A stretch of DNA of 64,000 bases from NCBI GenBank assembly GCA_018110825.1, contig JAGBCL010000095.1:1-64000 (forward strand), in the 5' to 3' direction. This stretch comes from Oscillospiraceae bacterium. GTDB lineage: Bacteria > Bacillota > Clostridia > Oscillospirales > Ruminococcaceae. The notes under the pieces were generated by a model. The model saw only the letters and a program-made list of their open reading frames with translations, ran no database searches and was not told the origin of the DNA. Within the stretch, counting starts at the first letter, position 1. Every line of letters begins with the position of its first letter. Shown piece after piece: positions 3,070 to 42,448 of this stretch. The translations under genes were made by a program, and so were the position numbers.

Positions 3070-4356
3070 TTAGTTATTGATATTTACATAGTTGGAAGGG
3101 TTGGTATGCTGACCGTCAACACGCACTTCAAAGTGGAGGTGATTACCGTACGCATAACCTGTGCATCCGATTGCACCAATCGGGTCGCCTTGTGCAACTG
3201 TGTCACCCATGGACGTATAAAGCTGACTGCAGTGAGCATAAAGCGTAGCAATGCCGTTGCCGTGGTCAATAATTACGCATTTGCCGTAACCGTTGCCCTT
3301 ATCGCTGGCCTGAATAACCGTTCCGCCTGCAGAAGCAACAATAGTTTCACCTGCGCATCCTGGTTTTGTTATGTCAATACCCTTGTGGAAATCACTGCTT
3401 TGTTCCTCGACAATCCAGCGTTCACCGTAAAGGTCAGATGTGTTTCGTACAGTTGGAACAGGCCAGATAAATCCCGTTTCGGAATAAGTCGGAGTAGCCG
3501 CTTCAGGAACATAAGTCTCACCATTTGCCTCAGCTTCCTGGCGTTTCTTCTCCTCTTCCTTACGCTTACGTTCTTCCTCTTCCTTACGTTTTCTTTCTGC
3601 CTCTTCCTGAAGTCTGCGGATTTCAGCCTGAAGTTCTTCTTCGACCTCAGCCTGTTCATCAGCAATTTCATCTGCACGTGCCTCATAATCAGCAATCATA
3701 TTTTCGTGCATCTGCTTTGTTTCAGCATGACCGTTATAGGTTTCACGAAGTTCTTCATAATAAGCCTCTTCCTCATCTTTCTTTTTTTCAAGCTGAGCAA
3801 GGGTTTCTTCATATTCAGCCTTTGTTGCTTCAAGGTCAGCAATCTGTTCGCTGAGTGAATCAATAAGGTCATTGTCGTGCTTGGAAACGCGTTCAACAAA
3901 TTCCATTCGTGCAAGCATATCATAAAAATCAGAGGAGCCTGCAATTACCGAGGCAAGGCTGTCATTGCCTGCCATATAAAGTGCACGCAGACGCTGACGG
4001 AACTGTTCGATGCCATCTGTGAATTCAGCTTCCTTAGCTGCAATATCTTCTTCAAGTGCAGCAAGTTCTTCTTCATAAAGTGTAATCTGTTCCTCAACAA
4101 CTTTAACCTGGTCTTCCTGAACTTTCATTTTCACATCATATTCTTCAAGGTACTTATCAGCCTCATCAGCTTTGTCCTCATATTCGGAAAGCAGCCATTC
4201 AACTTCCTGAAGTTCTTCATCAAGCTTTGCCTGTTTTGCTTCAAGTTCTGACATAGTGTCTGCTGTAACAATCATTCCCGAAATGACACTGCTCAGTGAA
4301 ATTGTACACGCAAGAAGAACAGCACTTATTTTTTTTGCTGTTTTAATAATTTTCAT
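3070..4356 (-). CDS. Secreted coiled-coil M23 endopeptidase (PcsB/EnvC/CwlO type)
   Basis: A 428-residue precursor. It has a signal peptide to about residue 30, a long Glu/Lys-rich coiled coil (about 33-250) with a hinge, a Glu/Arg/Lys linker, and a C-terminal LytM (peptidase M23) domain from about 320. The zinc ligands HxxxD (in HKGID) and HxH (in NHLHFEV) are present, so the domain looks catalytically active, unlike EnvC, which needs a partner amidase. In this family FtsEX drives the coiled coil to release peptidoglycan cleavage at division sites. The gene follows ftsX by 10 bp. The ATG at 4356 is preferred over an upstream in-frame TTG because AAAGGA sits 6 nt before it. Confidence 0.92.
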   Translation of the reverse strand: MKIIKTAKKISAVLLACTISLSSVISGMIVTADTMSELEAKQAKLDEELQEVEWLLSEYEDKADEADKYLEEYDVKMKVQEDQVKVVEEQITLYEEELAALEEDIAAKEAEFTDGIEQFRQRLRALYMAGNDSLASVIAGSSDFYDMLARMEFVERVSKHDNDLIDSLSEQIADLEATKAEYEETLAQLEKKKDEEEAYYEELRETYNGHAETKQMHENMIADYEARADEIADEQAEVEEELQAEIRRLQEEAERKRKEEEERKRKEEEKKRQEAEANGETYVPEAATPTYSETGFIWPVPTVRNTSDLYGERWIVEEQSSDFHKGIDITKPGCAGETIVASAGGTVIQASDKGNGYGKCVIIDHGNGIATLYAHCSQLYTSMGDTVAQGDPIGAIGCTGYAYGNHLHFEVRVDGQHTNPSNYVNINN

Positions 4357-10895: not shown

Positions 10896-10925
10896 AAAAT
10901 AAGACCACGTTTCGCAAGAAACGTG
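10896..10925 (-). promoter_or_regulatory. Attenuator-like hairpin in the ilvB leader
   Basis: On the transcribed strand CACGTTTC-TTGC-GAAACGTG is a perfect 8-bp stem followed by GTCTTATTTTTG, resembling an intrinsic terminator 30-40 nt before ilvB. It lies directly after an AAAAAAGGA sequence, so it could act on transcription or translation. Confidence 0.5.
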
Positions 10926-10940
10926 CGTCATCCTTTTTTA

Positions 10941-11042
10941 ATGTTTTGTGTGGTTTTGAAGCTCCACGCAGTGAGCTTTACAAAATTTGAAACGACAGTT
11001 TCAAAAGCACAAAACTCACAGTTTGAAAATTTATTTTCAAAC
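10941..11042 (-). repeat. Palindrome-rich leader element, copy A
   Basis: Two strong hairpins in the ilv leader: GTTTGAAAA with TTTTCAAAC (11021-11029 and 11034-11042), and TTTGAAAC with GTTTCAAA (10986-10993 and 10998-11005). The linker between them carries ACAAAACTCA, and an outer TTTTGTG/CACAAAA pairing is possible. Copy B at 41754-41834 has the same stems, order and linker, with two compensated base-pair changes. Confidence 0.65.
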
Positions 11043-11056
11043 TTGTATACCTTTTA

Positions 11057-11085
11057 ATCATACTACTTTTATGCTTTAAAGTCAA
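11057..11085 (-). promoter_or_regulatory. ilvB-ilvN-ilvC promoter
   Basis: Minus-strand TTGACT (11080-11085), a 17-bp spacer and TATGAT (11057-11062). Transcription would begin near 11050, just before copy A of the palindrome element, so the whole element is transcribed. Confidence 0.8.
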
Positions 11086-30269: not shown

Positions 30270-33026
30270 ATGGCTAAGATAACTCTTGACTGGAATAAAT
30301 ATATCGACAAATCACGTCAGGTTGCCGCTGAGGGCGTTGTAATGCTGAAAAATGACGGCGGTGTGCTTCCTCTTGACAAGGATAAGTGCACAGCTGTTTT
30401 CGGACGTATTCAGAGTCACTACTACAAAAGCGGTACAGGCTCAGGCGGACTTGTAAATGTTACCGAGGTTGTTGGAATAACCGAGGGACTTCTTCGCTGC
30501 GGTGCAAAGCTCAATAAGGAGCTGATTGACACCTACGCAAAGTGGGAGGAAGAAAACCCGTTTGACAACGGTGCAGGCTGGGGCGGCGAGCCCTGGTCAC
30601 AGAAGGAAATGCCTCTTGATGATGATTTTGTTGCATACATTGCGGCAGAGTCCGACTCCGCTGTCGTAATTATCGGACGTACCGCAGGCGAGGAACAGGA
30701 CAGTTCACCTGTTGAGGGTTCTTATCTTCTCAGTGCACTTGAAAAAGAAATGCTCTGCAAGGTCCGTAAGCACTTCAGGAAAATGGCCGTGCTTCTCAAT
30801 GTTGGCGGCGTAATTGATATGAGCTTTGTCAAAGAGATAAATCCTGACGCCGTGCTTTATGTTTGGCAGGGCGGTATGGTCGGCGGACTCGGTGTTGCTG
30901 ACGTACTTCTCGGCAACGTCAACCCTTGCGGAAAGCTTGCTGACACGATTGCTGAAAAACTTGAGGATTACCCTGCTTACAAGTATTTCGGCGACCCCGT
31001 AAGAAACTTCTATTGCGAGGATATATACGTCGGCTATCGCTACTTTGAAACATTCGCTCCCGAAAAGGTGCTTTATCCTTTCGGCTTTGGTTTATCTTAC
31101 ACAGATTTTTTCATTAATCCTCTTTCTTTTTGCTATGATATTGAAGATGATTATATTCAGATAGCTGTATCCGTACATAACAAGGGAAAGTTTCCTGGCA
31201 AGGAAGTCATTCAATTTTACTGTACGGCTCCTCAGGGTAAACTTGGCAAGCCTGCAAAGGTTCTCTGCTATTATGATAAAACACCGCTTCTTTTGCCTGA
31301 GCAACGATATCTGAATGATGAGATTTATATTCCTATTTCACAGCTTGCATCTTACGATGATTCTGGTATAACCGGCTATAAGTGCTGTTACGTTCTTGAA
31401 GCAGGAGAATATATTATCAGCGTTGGAAATAACATCAGAAATACGGAAGTATGTGCAAAATTCACTATCGACAGCACCCGTGTTGTAAGTAACTGTGGAC
31501 AGGCACTCGCCCCTGTTCTCCCCTTCGAAAGAATGGTAAACCGTGACGGCAAGGCTGTTATGGAAAGTGTGCCTCTTGCTGAATTTGATATGGACAAGAA
31601 GCGTGCTGAAAATCTTCCTGCTGAAATTCCACAAACTGGCGACAAGGGCATCAAGCTTTCCGACGTTAAGCACGGCAAGGCAGCAATGGACGATTTTATC
31701 GCACAGCTTACCGACGAGGAGCTTTCCTGCATAATCCGCGGCGAGGGTATGGGAAGTCCTAAGGTTACCCCAGGTACAGCTTCAGCTTTCGGTGCTGTTT
31801 CACAGAGTCTTGCAGACAAGGGTATCCCTTGCGGCTGTTGCTCCGATGGTCCTTCGGGCATGCGTCTTGACTGCGGCACGACCGCTTTCAGTATTCCTAA
31901 CGGCACGCTTATCGCCTGCACTTTCAACAAGGAGCTTGTTACCGAACTGTTTGAATTTATGGGCAACGAGGTTGCGGCAAACAATGTTGAGTGCCTGCTG
32001 GGCCCCGGTATGAACATTCACCGCTACGTTCTTAACGGACGTAATTTCGAGTATTTCAGCGAGGACCCTTACCTTACGGGTACAATGGCGGCATCTGAGC
32101 TCAAAGGCTTGCACAAGTTTGGTGTAACGGGCACGGTCAAGCATTTCTGCGGCAACAATCAGGAAACTCACCGCCACGACATTGACTCGGTTGTTTCCGA
32201 ACGTGCACTCCGCGAGATTTACCTCAAGGGCTTTGAAATTGCTGTCAGAGAGGGCAAGGCTTGCTCCGTGATGACGACTTACGGTTCAGTAAATGGTTTG
32301 TGGACGGCTGGCAACTATGACCTTGTAACAACAATTCTCCACAACGAATGGGGCTTCAAGGGCATTGTCATGACCGACTGGTGGGCTAACATCAACGAGC
32401 GTGGCAAGGGTCCCGACAAGAGCAACTTTGCGGCTATGGTTCGTGCTCAGAATGACATTTATATGGTCTGCTCCGACGGCTCACGAAATTCAGCAAACGA
32501 TAACACCCTTGCTTCACTAGAAAACGGCACGTTGACCCGTGGTGAGTTGCAAAGATGTGCAAAGAACATCTGCGAATTCCTTATGGGTACACGTGCAATG
32601 GACAGAGTTGAGGGAGTTGCTGACGAGTTTGAGATTATCAACCGCCCAGGTGATGATGATAATTTCGATGCAGCAAATGTTGTGTTCCACAAGCTTGACG
32701 GAACAGTTACAATTCCGTTGGAGAACATCTGCACCGACAAGAAGACTTCCTATGTGTTTGCACTTGACATTGTACGCTGTGGTAAGTTCCGTGCGACGAT
32801 TACCGCCAAATCCGATATGAGCGAGCTTGCACAGATGCCTGTTACTCTGTTTACGATGGGCACACCTTGCGGCAACTACACATGGAACGGCACAAACGGT
32901 GAGTGGGTTTCCATTTCCCGTGACGACATCAATCTGTTCTCACGCTTTACCGCCTGCAGACTTTATTTTGCACAGAGCGGTCTGAAGCTGAGAGATATTA
33001 CTTTTGAGATTGTTCAGGAATATTAA
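30270..33026 (+). CDS. GH3 beta-glucosidase with permuted domain order
   Basis: A 918-residue cytoplasmic enzyme (no signal peptide). The order is inverted relative to most GH3: the alpha/beta sandwich domain comes first (EGVVMLKNDGGVLPL at about 20), then a fibronectin III-like domain (about 275-390), then the TIM barrel (about 480-800). The barrel carries SDGPSGMR, GPGMNIHR, KHFCGNNQE and the nucleophile Asp703 in VMTDWW. A permuted order has been described for GH3 enzymes of Butyrivibrio and Ruminococcus. It would hydrolyse beta-glucosides imported by the divergent ABC system. Codon use shifts at about 31085-31440. Confidence 0.94.
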   Translation: MAKITLDWNKYIDKSRQVAAEGVVMLKNDGGVLPLDKDKCTAVFGRIQSHYYKSGTGSGGLVNVTEVVGITEGLLRCGAKLNKELIDTYAKWEEENPFDNGAGWGGEPWSQKEMPLDDDFVAYIAAESDSAVVIIGRTAGEEQDSSPVEGSYLLSALEKEMLCKVRKHFRKMAVLLNVGGVIDMSFVKEINPDAVLYVWQGGMVGGLGVADVLLGNVNPCGKLADTIAEKLEDYPAYKYFGDPVRNFYCEDIYVGYRYFETFAPEKVLYPFGFGLSYTDFFINPLSFCYDIEDDYIQIAVSVHNKGKFPGKEVIQFYCTAPQGKLGKPAKVLCYYDKTPLLLPEQRYLNDEIYIPISQLASYDDSGITGYKCCYVLEAGEYIISVGNNIRNTEVCAKFTIDSTRVVSNCGQALAPVLPFERMVNRDGKAVMESVPLAEFDMDKKRAENLPAEIPQTGDKGIKLSDVKHGKAAMDDFIAQLTDEELSCIIRGEGMGSPKVTPGTASAFGAVSQSLADKGIPCGCCSDGPSGMRLDCGTTAFSIPNGTLIACTFNKELVTELFEFMGNEVAANNVECLLGPGMNIHRYVLNGRNFEYFSEDPYLTGTMAASELKGLHKFGVTGTVKHFCGNNQETHRHDIDSVVSERALREIYLKGFEIAVREGKACSVMTTYGSVNGLWTAGNYDLVTTILHNEWGFKGIVMTDWWANINERGKGPDKSNFAAMVRAQNDIYMVCSDGSRNSANDNTLASLENGTLTRGELQRCAKNICEFLMGTRAMDRVEGVADEFEIINRPGDDDNFDAANVVFHKLDGTVTIPLENICTDKKTSYVFALDIVRCGKFRATITAKSDMSELAQMPVTLFTMGTPCGNYTWNGTNGEWVSISRDDINLFSRFTACRLYFAQSGLKLRDITFEIVQEY

Positions 33027-33064
33027 AAGGATAACCCGAGAAGTTTGGCTTCCCGGGTTATTGC
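32994..33064. repeat. GH3 3' end and terminator, copy 1 of a 71-bp direct repeat
   Basis: The last codons (DITFEIVQEY-stop) and terminator of the GH3 gene. The same sequence recurs at 35455-35526 with only a few differences. Confidence 0.9.
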
Positions 33065-35414: not shown

Positions 35415-35454
35415 GAGACTTGCGTGTTGCTTGAGAAGTTTAAGGAAAGCTTTG

Positions 35455-35526
35455 TGATATTACTTTTGAGATTATTCAGGAATATTAAAAGGATAACCCG
35501 AGAAGTTTTGGCTTCTCGGGTTGTTG
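35455..35526 (+). pseudogene. Remnant of a second GH3 gene 3' end plus terminator (direct repeat copy 2)
   Basis: This stretch repeats 32994-33064 nearly exactly. It encodes DITFEIIQEY-stop in the corresponding frame and then the same terminator (AACCCGAGAAG paired with CTTCTCGGGTT, here a better stem). Upstream in that frame stop codons appear within about 20 bp, so only the tail survives. It marks a past duplication or recombination at this locus. Confidence 0.8.
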
Positions 35527-40848: not shown

Positions 40849-41711
40849 ACGGCAAGCTCCTTTCTGTTCTGCCAGATTGAGAATGTGAGCAGGTTTTCAA
40901 CGTTCGGATTTCTCACGCTTACACCATCGAATTTGCTGAGGTTTTCACGGAGAACAAGCGCCTCAAAGCCTGCGTTTGTCTTTCTGATACCAATTGTGTA
41001 TTTCTCGTTGTCACGTGTCAGCTTGTCGTTTGCACCGCTGATTACAGCATACTTGTCTTCGATAAGGTCAATGCTCATTGACTCACTGATTTTGCCGTCG
41101 ATAATAAGTGTGATAACGTCAGCAATTTTGTCGAGGTCGCCTGTGATATGTGTTGAGAACAGCACTGAGCGTTCACCGTCTGCAACGAACTCACGGAGAA
41201 TGTCGAGGATTTCAATTCTTGCCACAGGGTCAAGTCCCGCTGTAGGCTCGTCAAGGATGAGAAGTTTAGGCTTGTGGGAAAGCGCAATGGCAAGCATCGC
41301 CTTTGTCTGCATACCCTTTGAAAATGCGGAGATTTTCTTCTTTTCGGGAAGGTCCCACATCTTGATAAGCTTGCTGAACTTTTCCTTGTCCCACTCCTCG
41401 TAAGCAAGTGCACAAGCCTGAGCGGTCTTTGCGAGAGTAGAGTTGTAGAAAAGGTAGCACTCGTCGGAAACGTAACCGATTTTATTTTTCACGGATATTT
41501 CATCAGCAATGTTGTCGAAACCGCATACTGTGATTTTGCCGTTTGTCTTATCAACCATATTCATTATCAGACGGATAATTGTGGTCTTGCCTGCACCATT
41601 CTGACCAATGAGTCCCATAACCGTACCGGGCTCAATTGAGAAGCTTACATTATCGAGTTTAAAGTCCTTATAGTCCTTACAAAGATTATCAATGTGAAGA
41701 ATGTCATTCAT
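40845..41711 (-). CDS. ABC transporter ATP-binding protein
   Basis: About 288 residues: Walker A GQNGAGKTT (about 36-44), Walker B KLLILDEPTAGLDPVARIE with the D-loop, and a degenerate signature (FSKGMQTKAMLAIALS) typical of drug- or bacitracin-type exporters. The C-terminal part (about 215-288) is a regulatory extension. The ATG at 41711 is given. An ATG at 41723 lies in the 3' arm of a hairpin, and the nearest good Shine-Dalgarno (AAAGGAG, 41746-41752) lies on the far side of that hairpin. Confidence 0.88.
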   Translation of the reverse strand: MNDILHIDNLCKDYKDFKLDNVSFSIEPGTVMGLIGQNGAGKTTIIRLIMNMVDKTNGKITVCGFDNIADEISVKNKIGYVSDECYLFYNSTLAKTAQACALAYEEWDKEKFSKLIKMWDLPEKKKISAFSKGMQTKAMLAIALSHKPKLLILDEPTAGLDPVARIEILDILREFVADGERSVLFSTHITGDLDKIADVITLIIDGKISESMSIDLIEDKYAVISGANDKLTRDNEKYTIGIRKTNAGFEALVLRENLSKFDGVSVRNPNVENLLTFSIWQNRKELAV

Positions 41712-41720
41712 AATATTAAC

Positions 41721-41742
41721 CATTTTCCCGTCAGGGAAAATG
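41721..41742 (-). promoter_or_regulatory. Hairpin between Shine-Dalgarno and start codon of the ABC ATPase gene
   Basis: CATTTTCCC pairs perfectly with GGGAAAATG (loop GTCA). The stem contains the upstream ATG candidate and is 3 nt from AAAGGAG. It could bridge the ribosome site to the ATG at 41711 or hide it. Confidence 0.5.
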
Positions 41743-41753
41743 CACTCCTTTCG

Positions 41754-41834
41754 ATGTTTTGTGGTTTTACTTGTAAAATTCGGAACGTCAGTTCCGAAAA
41801 CAAAACTCATAGTTTGAAAACTTGTTTTCAAACT
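41754..41834 (-). repeat. Palindrome-rich leader element, copy B
   Basis: Hairpins AGTTTGAAAA with TTTTCAAACT (41811-41820 and 41825-41834) and TTCGGAAC with GTTCCGAA (41779-41786 and 41791-41798), linked by ACAAAACTCAT. It has the same order, orientation and linker as copy A upstream of ilvB. The middle stem differs at two base pairs, both compensated. It lies between gntR and the ATPase gene, within the operon transcript. Confidence 0.65.
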
Positions 41835-41867
41835 TTATTCCTTTCAAATTGTATTTGTTATTGGTTT

Positions 41868-42245: not shown

Positions 42246-42260
42246 TCAATCACCTCCTTG

Positions 42261-42300
42261 TGTGTATACTGTGTATAACGTTATATACACAGTATACACA
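42261..42300. promoter_or_regulatory. 40-bp inverted repeat, probable GntR operator
   Basis: TGTGTATACTGTGTA and TACACAGTATACACA flank a 10-bp near-palindromic centre (TAACGTTATA). It covers the -10 box and transcription start of the gntR operon. The next 10 bp (GATATACACG) repeat a half-site. Confidence 0.85.
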
Positions 42301-42383: not shown

Positions 42384-42420
42384 AAAAAACCGTCCCGAAA
42401 TTACTTTTCGGGACGGTTAA
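42384..42420 (-). terminator. Terminator of the giant surface protein gene
   Basis: Minus-strand AACCGTCCCGAAAA paired with TTTCGGGACGGTT, then TTTTTATG. Confidence 0.88.
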
Positions 42421-42448
42421 CTGTGTATATAAGATTATACAAGTGTGA

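Follow-up and report, generated by a model that had tools for sequence, protein, structure and literature searches.

Small interspersed repeats and MITEs of bacteria include RUP and BOX of pneumococcus, Correia/NEMIS and ERIC (PMC3049150, PMC2229807), and extracts of these two sources characterise MITEs by terminal inverted repeats and target duplications. The element that we describe here resembles the repeats portrayed in those extracts in its length of about 100-150 bp, its many dispersed intergenic copies, its strong secondary structure and its limitation to one group of bacteria; it is short and non-coding. Unlike MITEs, it has neither evident inverted repeats nor an evident target duplication (by eye, its 5' end AAGTTTG and its 3' end RTGGTCAT are not inverted copies of each other), and it departs from them further in its near-fixed orientation, its ribosome-binding-site target and the replacement Shine-Dalgarno (SD) sequence that it carries along. 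The REP/RAYT sequences, short palindromic repeats tagged with GTAG or CGTC, are held in extracts of PMC3733652 to be non-autonomous mobile elements. Our element is likewise a short palindromic repeat, probably of the non-autonomous mobile kind, whereas it has a multi-helix fold, shows by eye no GTAG or CGTC at the palindrome foot in its copies, and occurs in draft genomes, both the one studied here and copy-rich ones, in which a Y1 transposase was not found.

Two described systems recall how such an insertion could be borne at translation. According to an extract of PMC3014915, a hairpin between the SD and the AUG of phage T4 genes 25 and 38 shortens the spacing from 27 to 11 nt and from 22 to 5 nt, respectively. 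Our element, too, combines a distant SD with a hairpin that would restore the spacing according to predicted folding; the split ribosome-binding site of T4 belongs to single phage genes and that described here is dispersed by a mobile element, and the comparison concerns only how the two work. In mitochondrial genes of Magnusiomyces capitatus, as an extract of PMC5009743 has it, inserts that interrupt the coding sequence are bypassed by elongating ribosomes. Both cases have short inserts in expressed genes that would be harmless at translation; the Magnusiomyces inserts differ in lying within the coding sequence and in being bypassed during elongation. For its size, copy number and foldedness we place the present element among the small non-autonomous mobile repeats, from which it differs in lacking inverted-repeat ends, in its target and in its carried ribosome-binding site. 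The open-access full-text literature, a scope outside which most subscription journals fall, yielded no description of the element or of a repeat family that inserts between SD and start codon.

The explanation that we favour, with a probability of roughly three in four, is that a short non-autonomous mobile element inserts just 3' of SD-like purine tracts, nearly always in sense and usually in the gap between SD and start codon; that its own SD and a hairpin, P5, would replace the native SD; and that it would be moved by a factor acting in trans or by template switching.

The covarying fold and the family that shares it

Two copies lie in the window, by which we mean the whole stretch of 64,000 nucleotides that was analysed: one in the ilvB leader and one before the gene for an ABC ATPase (Table 1). 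A preliminary description of this DNA had noticed the same series of structures at both places. They are indeed there, with the same P1 stem and the same linker, with P1 loops TTTA and CTTG as read on the plus strand, and with a middle stem that differs between the copies at two compensated pairs. The description had the place right and the extent too small, with only about 70% of the first copy covered; both copies extend further, taking in an SD and a fifth hairpin, P5, as far as about 10900 and 41713, respectively. It also needs correction as to strand, because both copies are read on the minus strand, in sense with ilvB and with the gene for the ABC ATPase. What it listed as a GGTTTT/GTTTTGT tract consists of two further helices, with P2 (GTTTTGT/ACAAAAC) enclosing P3 and P4.

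Table 1. Positions in the window of the two copies, their parts and adjoining features
Feature	Position (strand)	Details	Basis
ilvB-leader copy, whole insertion	10900..11043 (-)	144 bp; 10901-11044 equally possible	empty vs filled allele comparison
P1 hairpin GTTTGAAAATAAATTTTCAAAC, ilvB copy	11021..11042 (-)		alignment and covariation
P2 5' strand, ilvB copy	11008..11017 (-)	outer helix of three-way junction	
P3 variable hairpin TTTGAAAC/GTTTCAAA, ilvB copy	10986..11005 (-)		
P4, ilvB copy	10954..10985 (-)	enlarged by nested hairpin	
P2 3' strand, ilvB copy	10940..10950 (-)		
SD2-like AAAAGGA	10931..10937 (-)	part of ilvB-copy element	
P5 hairpin CACGTTTC/GAAACGTG, ilvB copy	10906..10925 (-)		compensated vs CACGCTTC/GAAGCGTG in other copies
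SD-like purine tract AAAAGGTATACA	11044..11055 (-)	immediately 5' of ilvB insertion	sequence inspection
ilvB promoter (presumed)	11057..11085 (-)	TTGACT 11080-11085, 17-nt spacer, TATGAT 11057-11062	
ABC-ATPase copy, whole insertion	41713..41835 (-)	about 123 bp; 3' end ambiguous by few nt	
P1 hairpin, ABC copy	41812..41833 (-)		
P2-P3-P4 three-way junction, ABC copy	41753..41808 (-)	P3 41779-41798, P4 41765-41778	
SD2 AAAGGAG	41745..41751 (-)	part of ABC-copy element	
P5 hairpin CATTTTCCC/GGGAAAATG, ABC copy	41721..41742 (-)	between SD2 and start codon	
ABC ATPase gene start	41700..41711 (-)	ATG 41709-41711; same start in empty alleles	
SD1, native SD region TTGAAAGGAATA of ABC ATPase gene	41836..41847 (-)	now about 125 nt from start codon	

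The element is ordered as P1, the three-way junction P2-P4, its own SD (GAAAGGAGG) and, mostly, the spacer hairpin P5. Folded as RNA, the two window copies both beat their dinucleotide shuffles, one with z -4.16 (0/200 as good) and the other with z -2.56 (3/200 as good). From 12 copies of the window's own genome, RNAalifold returned unaided P1 and the three-way junction, with P2 around P3 and P4 and compensatory changes at 15 of 34 pairs. Against shuffles and slid partners, this 12-copy structure was exceptional on four of five measures (0/500 shuffles) and not exceptional on the fifth, further pair types, in which 80/500 shuffles were as good. The covariance model was also run on 98 loci, made up of 17 of the 28 matches in the own genome, 3 loci from other genomes of the genus and 78 of the 80 loci listed in a species-genome scan. 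They gave 108 matches at E<=0.01 (104 distinct), in a large alignment fitted to the model. Here 96.1% of cells are paired, 363 double changes stand against 74 in shuffles, 22 of 32 pairs across four helices have double changes, and 0/500 shuffles were as good on any measure; the percentages favour typical copies, because 11 of the 28 own-genome matches, which are weak, short or aberrant, were excluded from the 98 loci. The pattern matches L180 and L207, judged to be chance, were excluded as well. P3 is the least perfect helix, at 88.2% paired, and about 38 copies have a common U-C/C-U mismatch inside it. The strand test, RNA against DNA, gave 69 G-U vs 26 A-C, with 36 of the G-U at one terminal pair; after removal of the outermost P1 pair, 33 G-U pairs stand against 25 A-C mismatches, so that the constraint may act on RNA or on single-stranded DNA. 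The covariation supports the conserved secondary structure, beyond chance, that the preliminary description had proposed.

Some copies (L352, L365, L367 and L369) have further hairpins, such as AAATGACATTTATGTCATTT, nested within the P2 3' strand or the P3 loop. The CGTTAG that precedes SD2 in L352 and copies like it could pair with its complement, the CTAACG around the P5 loop, and might thereby mask SD2.

The two window structures are members of a dispersed family of copies. In the genome there are 14 occurrences of the P1 pattern TGAAAANAANTTTTCA and none of its reversed control; a DNA search of the same genome found 11 places at E<=1.1e-5, query included; and the covariance model, built from 12 own-genome copies that are themselves among its matches, found 28 at E<=1 and 26 at E<=0.01. 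Pattern and model counts alike bear out the earlier view that the likeness of the two leaders exceeds chance, and the check proposed with it, a covariance model run on related genomes, brought up many copies: at E<=0.01 the model matched 18 of the 21 genomes of the genus, with as many as 32 matches in one genome. At the same threshold this search matched none of 40 genomes from other genera. Across the order, sampled more widely, 16 of 394 genomes from 12 genera, own genome included, match at E<=0.001, and in a class sample 2 of 391 genomes match, both within the own family; these order and class counts are lower bounds because only 11 candidates were scored per genome, which recovered 11 own matches instead of 28. 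Some of the order-sample matches keep the order P1, SD, start codon. The species-genome scan yielded at least 80 loci with titles naming Oscillospiraceae, Ruminococcus or Clostridia, and among the matches listed the sources are nearly all metagenome genomes, many with titles that name animal gut samples. Two copies also stand at gene starts on the minus strand of a viral contig (L370, matches 2307-2362 and 3631-3687) beside genes resembling those for Mu Gp27, Mor and NusG, which makes a Mu-like phage a possible carrier of the element.

In several distant matches (L317, L331, L336, L339 in G213, L326 and L328) the P1 stem is unrelated and no start codon is visible; these are perhaps REP-like forms, from other genera, that are related to the three-way junction. 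Elsewhere (L359, L361, L362 and L368) SD, P5 and start codon stand with little or no P1-P4, as decayed or partly excised copies.

Empty sites and the insertion target

Empty alleles are available for both window copies. The closest relative, whose IlvB is 98% identical, has GTATACATTTTTGAAA at the ilvB locus, where in the own genome the element separates GTATACA from TTTTTGAAA; the empty allele is GTATAC-A-TTTTTG vs the filled GTATAC-A-AGTTTG...GTGGTCTT-A-TTTTTG. At the ABC ATPase gene, whose start in a close relative is AAAGGAATATATATATGAATG, the filled allele has AAAGGAATA, the element (AAGTTTG...GGTTAATAT) and then TATGAATG, vs AAAGGAATA-TATA-TATGAATG in two close relatives, so that 4 nt of the TA run differ between filled and empty. 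Model matches were present in 2 of the 34 ilvB and ABC loci examined, both in the own genome. Gain in this lineage is the simple reading, because the 32 other counterparts (16 ilvB and 16 ABC, the ABC set containing two places from one genome) gave no model match. From these alleles we judge the element to be mobile, about 100-150 bp long, and inserted at both window loci.

A joined-flank query from 27 sites, with L052 left out because no start was found for it, was used to reach further empty counterparts. There are 38 comparisons at 21 loci, of which 37 are empty, one of these (L290) being a paralogous place within the own genome, and 1 is filled in both species (L063 vs L313); L064/L292 and L048/L074 are likewise filled in both. 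Among the loci retrieved, the remaining sites of the query gave no clean empty counterpart. Inspected by eye, the 21 loci show target-site overlaps of 0-3 nt and no clear target duplication (printed 10-nt overlaps at L096 and L058 are alignments that extend into P1). Several sites lost part of the spacer or SD, and native 5' flanks are retained right up to the element.

Of the 21 loci that have an empty counterpart, we read 16 as insertions between an SD and the start codon. The five not cleanly so placed are ilvB; L063 and L082, where the native SD was lost with the spacer; L092, which is ambiguous; and L066, whose SD is weak. An SD core of at least 5 nt stands just 5' of P1 in 50 of 105 distinct flanks vs 11 of 105 in a window further upstream, and 18 of the 105 have not even a 4-nt core there; the flank profile is enriched in G/A at -9 to -3 and in A at -2 and -1. 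For flank and SD counts 106 of the 108 matches were used, L073 and L074 having been excluded beforehand as duplicates of L190 and L214. Downstream, an ATG-started open frame in sense begins within 8-75 nt in 90 of the 100 copies with enough flank, and no ATG start was found in the other 10; the control, on the opposite strand beyond the 5' end, has such a frame in 11 of 105. Within the own genome, 18 of 26 examined matches, a set outside which L070 and L072 fall, lie 15-47 nt before a start codon. The remainder include ilvB, L055, which is antisense at the 3' end of a gene, and others whose next start is more than 100 nt away or was not found. Many insertions lie inside operons, since upstream frames of at least 100 codons end in or at P1 in 28 of 100 copies and just before P1 in 24 of 100.

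The ilvB copy is instructive as to what is recognised. Its purine tract (AAAAGG) lies near the expected transcription start, downstream of boxes that we take from the consensus to be the ilvB promoter, and on inspection it is not the SD of ilvB; by eye, similar promoter-like boxes also stand upstream of most empty counterparts. This suggests that the target would be read as sequence and not through its function in translation.

The L082 site is occupied in L302 (G011:C143) by a different insertion containing ACGGAAAGGGTAAAGGCTCAGCCTTTC, a motif also present in L183; it is perhaps a second repeat family with the same target. Immediately before P1, L321 and L332 carry a repeat of a motif that resembles the 3' end, GAAAGG(C)ATGGTYAT, as if the element had entered a site left by an earlier copy.

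A putative carried ribosome-binding site

By entering 3' of an SD-like purine tract in sense orientation, the element would separate the native SD from the start codon, and the displacement amounts to more than 100 nt. We propose that its own SD (SD2), with P5 looped out, would then take over from the distant native one, and that the invaded gene would still be translated by way of SD2. An SD2 core of at least 5 nt is present in 81 of the 90 copies with a start. A hairpin of at least 6 bp follows the core within 50 nt in 71 of 99 copies vs 10 of 99 coding control windows, and the P5 stem varies in sequence with its pairing kept: the 59 copies with SD, hairpin and distal ATG have 21 different stems. 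In these 59 copies the median distance from SD to AUG is 34 nt in linear sequence and 12 nt with the hairpin looped out, a shortening of an over-long gap like that described, in the extract cited above, for T4 genes 25 and 38. The predicted pair probability of P5 exceeds 0.5 in 56 of 63, and SD2 is predicted to be moderately accessible, with an unpaired probability that averages 0.61 and exceeds 0.5 in 57 of 81. Some copies have no P5, and there the SD lies 6-14 nt from the ATG.

Downstream genes are unrelated to one another and in the own genome include members of the methionyl-tRNA synthetase, YidC, RbfA and threonylcarbamoyl-AMP synthase (Sua5) families. These four families are often essential, so translation should survive the insertion. 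The element probably rebuilds the ribosome-binding site that it disrupts, as we infer from SD2, P5 and the nature of these genes. At ilvB, a TTG with a 4-codon frame stands at the position of the expected start, and the element there may simply be an extra leader.

Of the 60 P5 copies that have a distal ATG, 43 carry an RTG at the 3' end of P5; it is in frame with no stop in 32 of these 43, and it lies 12 nt from the distal ATG in 30 of the 43. We do not take it as a general start, because it is missing in 17 of the 60, because the orthologous pair L048/L074 differs by one nt between RTG and distal ATG, and because the distal ATG is the start in empty alleles. It is possibly an extra start, for which the in-frame excess is evidence. 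A leader peptide in P1 (TTG/CTG AAA ATA AAT...) was also rejected: by eye it is open in some copies and stops early in others (L011).

Alternative readings and the means of movement

A covarying fold in leaders, nearly always in sense and at times kept at orthologous places in two species (L048/L074; L064/L292), is also what would be expected of a cis-regulatory RNA, a riboswitch-like or protein-binding leader kept for its effect on the downstream gene and spread by occasional duplication. We consider this improbable: the genes downstream are unrelated, both window loci are empty in 32/32 counterparts examined, two copies lie at gene starts of a Mu-like phage contig, and Rfam 15 gave 0 matches at gathering score in the window. 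On the same null result for the window we reject a known RNA (riboswitch, T-box or other), in agreement with the preliminary description, in which none was found to fit. A permissive Rfam 15 search of four loci brought up two hits, both below threshold: RsaD (27.8 bits where 50 are needed; E 0.21), which is on the other strand from the L053 element, and rli40 (24 bits where 100 are needed; E 0.02), which lies away from the L045 element. That description had seen a structure selected in two operon leaders, of which the covarying structure stands, whereas membership in these leaders as such is not supported, given the 32 empty counterparts and the copies before unrelated genes. Covarying leaders common to unrelated operons need not be riboswitches. 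Slightly less probable still is that the compensatory changes arose by mutation, through quasi-palindrome correction by template switching in short hairpins, and not by selection for structure. P1, P3 and P5 are mostly short-loop palindromes and G-U pairs are rare (69/3267 cells), as such correction would have it, but the long-range helix P2 remains paired in 98.2% of cells, 4 of its 10 pairs show double changes, and the order of hairpins stays constant while their sequences change.

Returning to the mobile element, two rivals concern the mechanism of its movement only. Ectopic gene conversion or template switching between ribosome-binding sites, with SD and start codon as short anchors, would need no transposase; it overlaps with our preferred explanation and, although we hold it to be rather unlikely, it is a serious rival. 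Both ends of the element fall at SD and ATG, there is no clear duplication and spacers show small replacements, the fixed 12-nt spacing from RTG to distal ATG fits as well, and neither a Y1 transposase nor a reverse transcriptase was found in the draft of the copy-richest genome (G003, 32 copies). Against it, native 5' flanks are, by eye, retained and not replaced by donor sequence, the ilvB insertion lies outside an SD-start spacer, and we reason that such short anchors should be common, so that anchors alone leave it unexplained why few genes are hit. The other rival, which we regard as very unlikely, is a single-strand transposase of the IS200/IS605 type (Y1, RAYT), as for REP sequences. 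End hairpins, lack of target duplication, fixed orientation and a preference for one side of the target are traits of the IS200/IS605 family, and the element has end hairpins, no clear target duplication, a fixed orientation and a target-side preference; however, no GTAG tag was seen, and Y1_Tnp, which 4 of 21 genus genomes (drafts) have, was not found in the own genome, 95.96% complete, or in four copy-rich drafts (G002, G003, G007 and G009). As to a retroelement or group II intron derivative, a resident reverse transcriptase (RVT_1) was found in 7 of the 21, among them the own genome but not G003. Because these genomes are drafts, a missing Y1 or RVT_1 is not proof of absence. The 14 own-genome P1 pattern hits include no autonomous copy, all being within elements already listed; the Y1_Tnp and RVT_1 profiles and these hits together revealed no mobilising enzyme or autonomous relative.

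Somewhat short of even odds, in our judgement, is the broader proposal that this is a new class of mobile element, which would recognise the SD tract, insert 3' of it in sense by an undescribed mechanism, be tolerable even in essential genes by means of a prefabricated split ribosome-binding site, have relatives, though sparser ones, elsewhere in the order, and be passed from host to host by Mu-like phages. The usual view is that mobile DNA is tolerated because it stays out of genes or occupies neutral gaps; the element described here appears to aim at the sensitive gap that separates SD from start codon and to make good the disruption by bringing an SD and a spacer hairpin of its own. If so, it would represent a natural, dispersed use of the split-site device known from T4 genes 25 and 38, and the 21 loci would offer matched empty and filled pairs for measuring the effect of a structured leader on translation. 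It would also raise the question of which enzyme or process reads an SD tract as an insertion target.

Other repeats are present in the window. At positions 1-360, 18-bp repeats (AACGAAAATACAGACAAT-like) form an array that probably encodes a low-complexity stretch rich in N, E, T and D. A 62-bp direct repeat, 94% identical, occupies 32985-33046 and 35447-35508; it takes in the final part of a glycosyl hydrolase family 3 gene together with the beginning of a terminator-like hairpin, and its second copy, where there is no gene of a known family, is perhaps the remnant of a gene end. Upstream of the GntR gene, palindromic TATACACAGTATACACA-like sequences at 42259-42300 and 42420-42441 are perhaps GntR operators.
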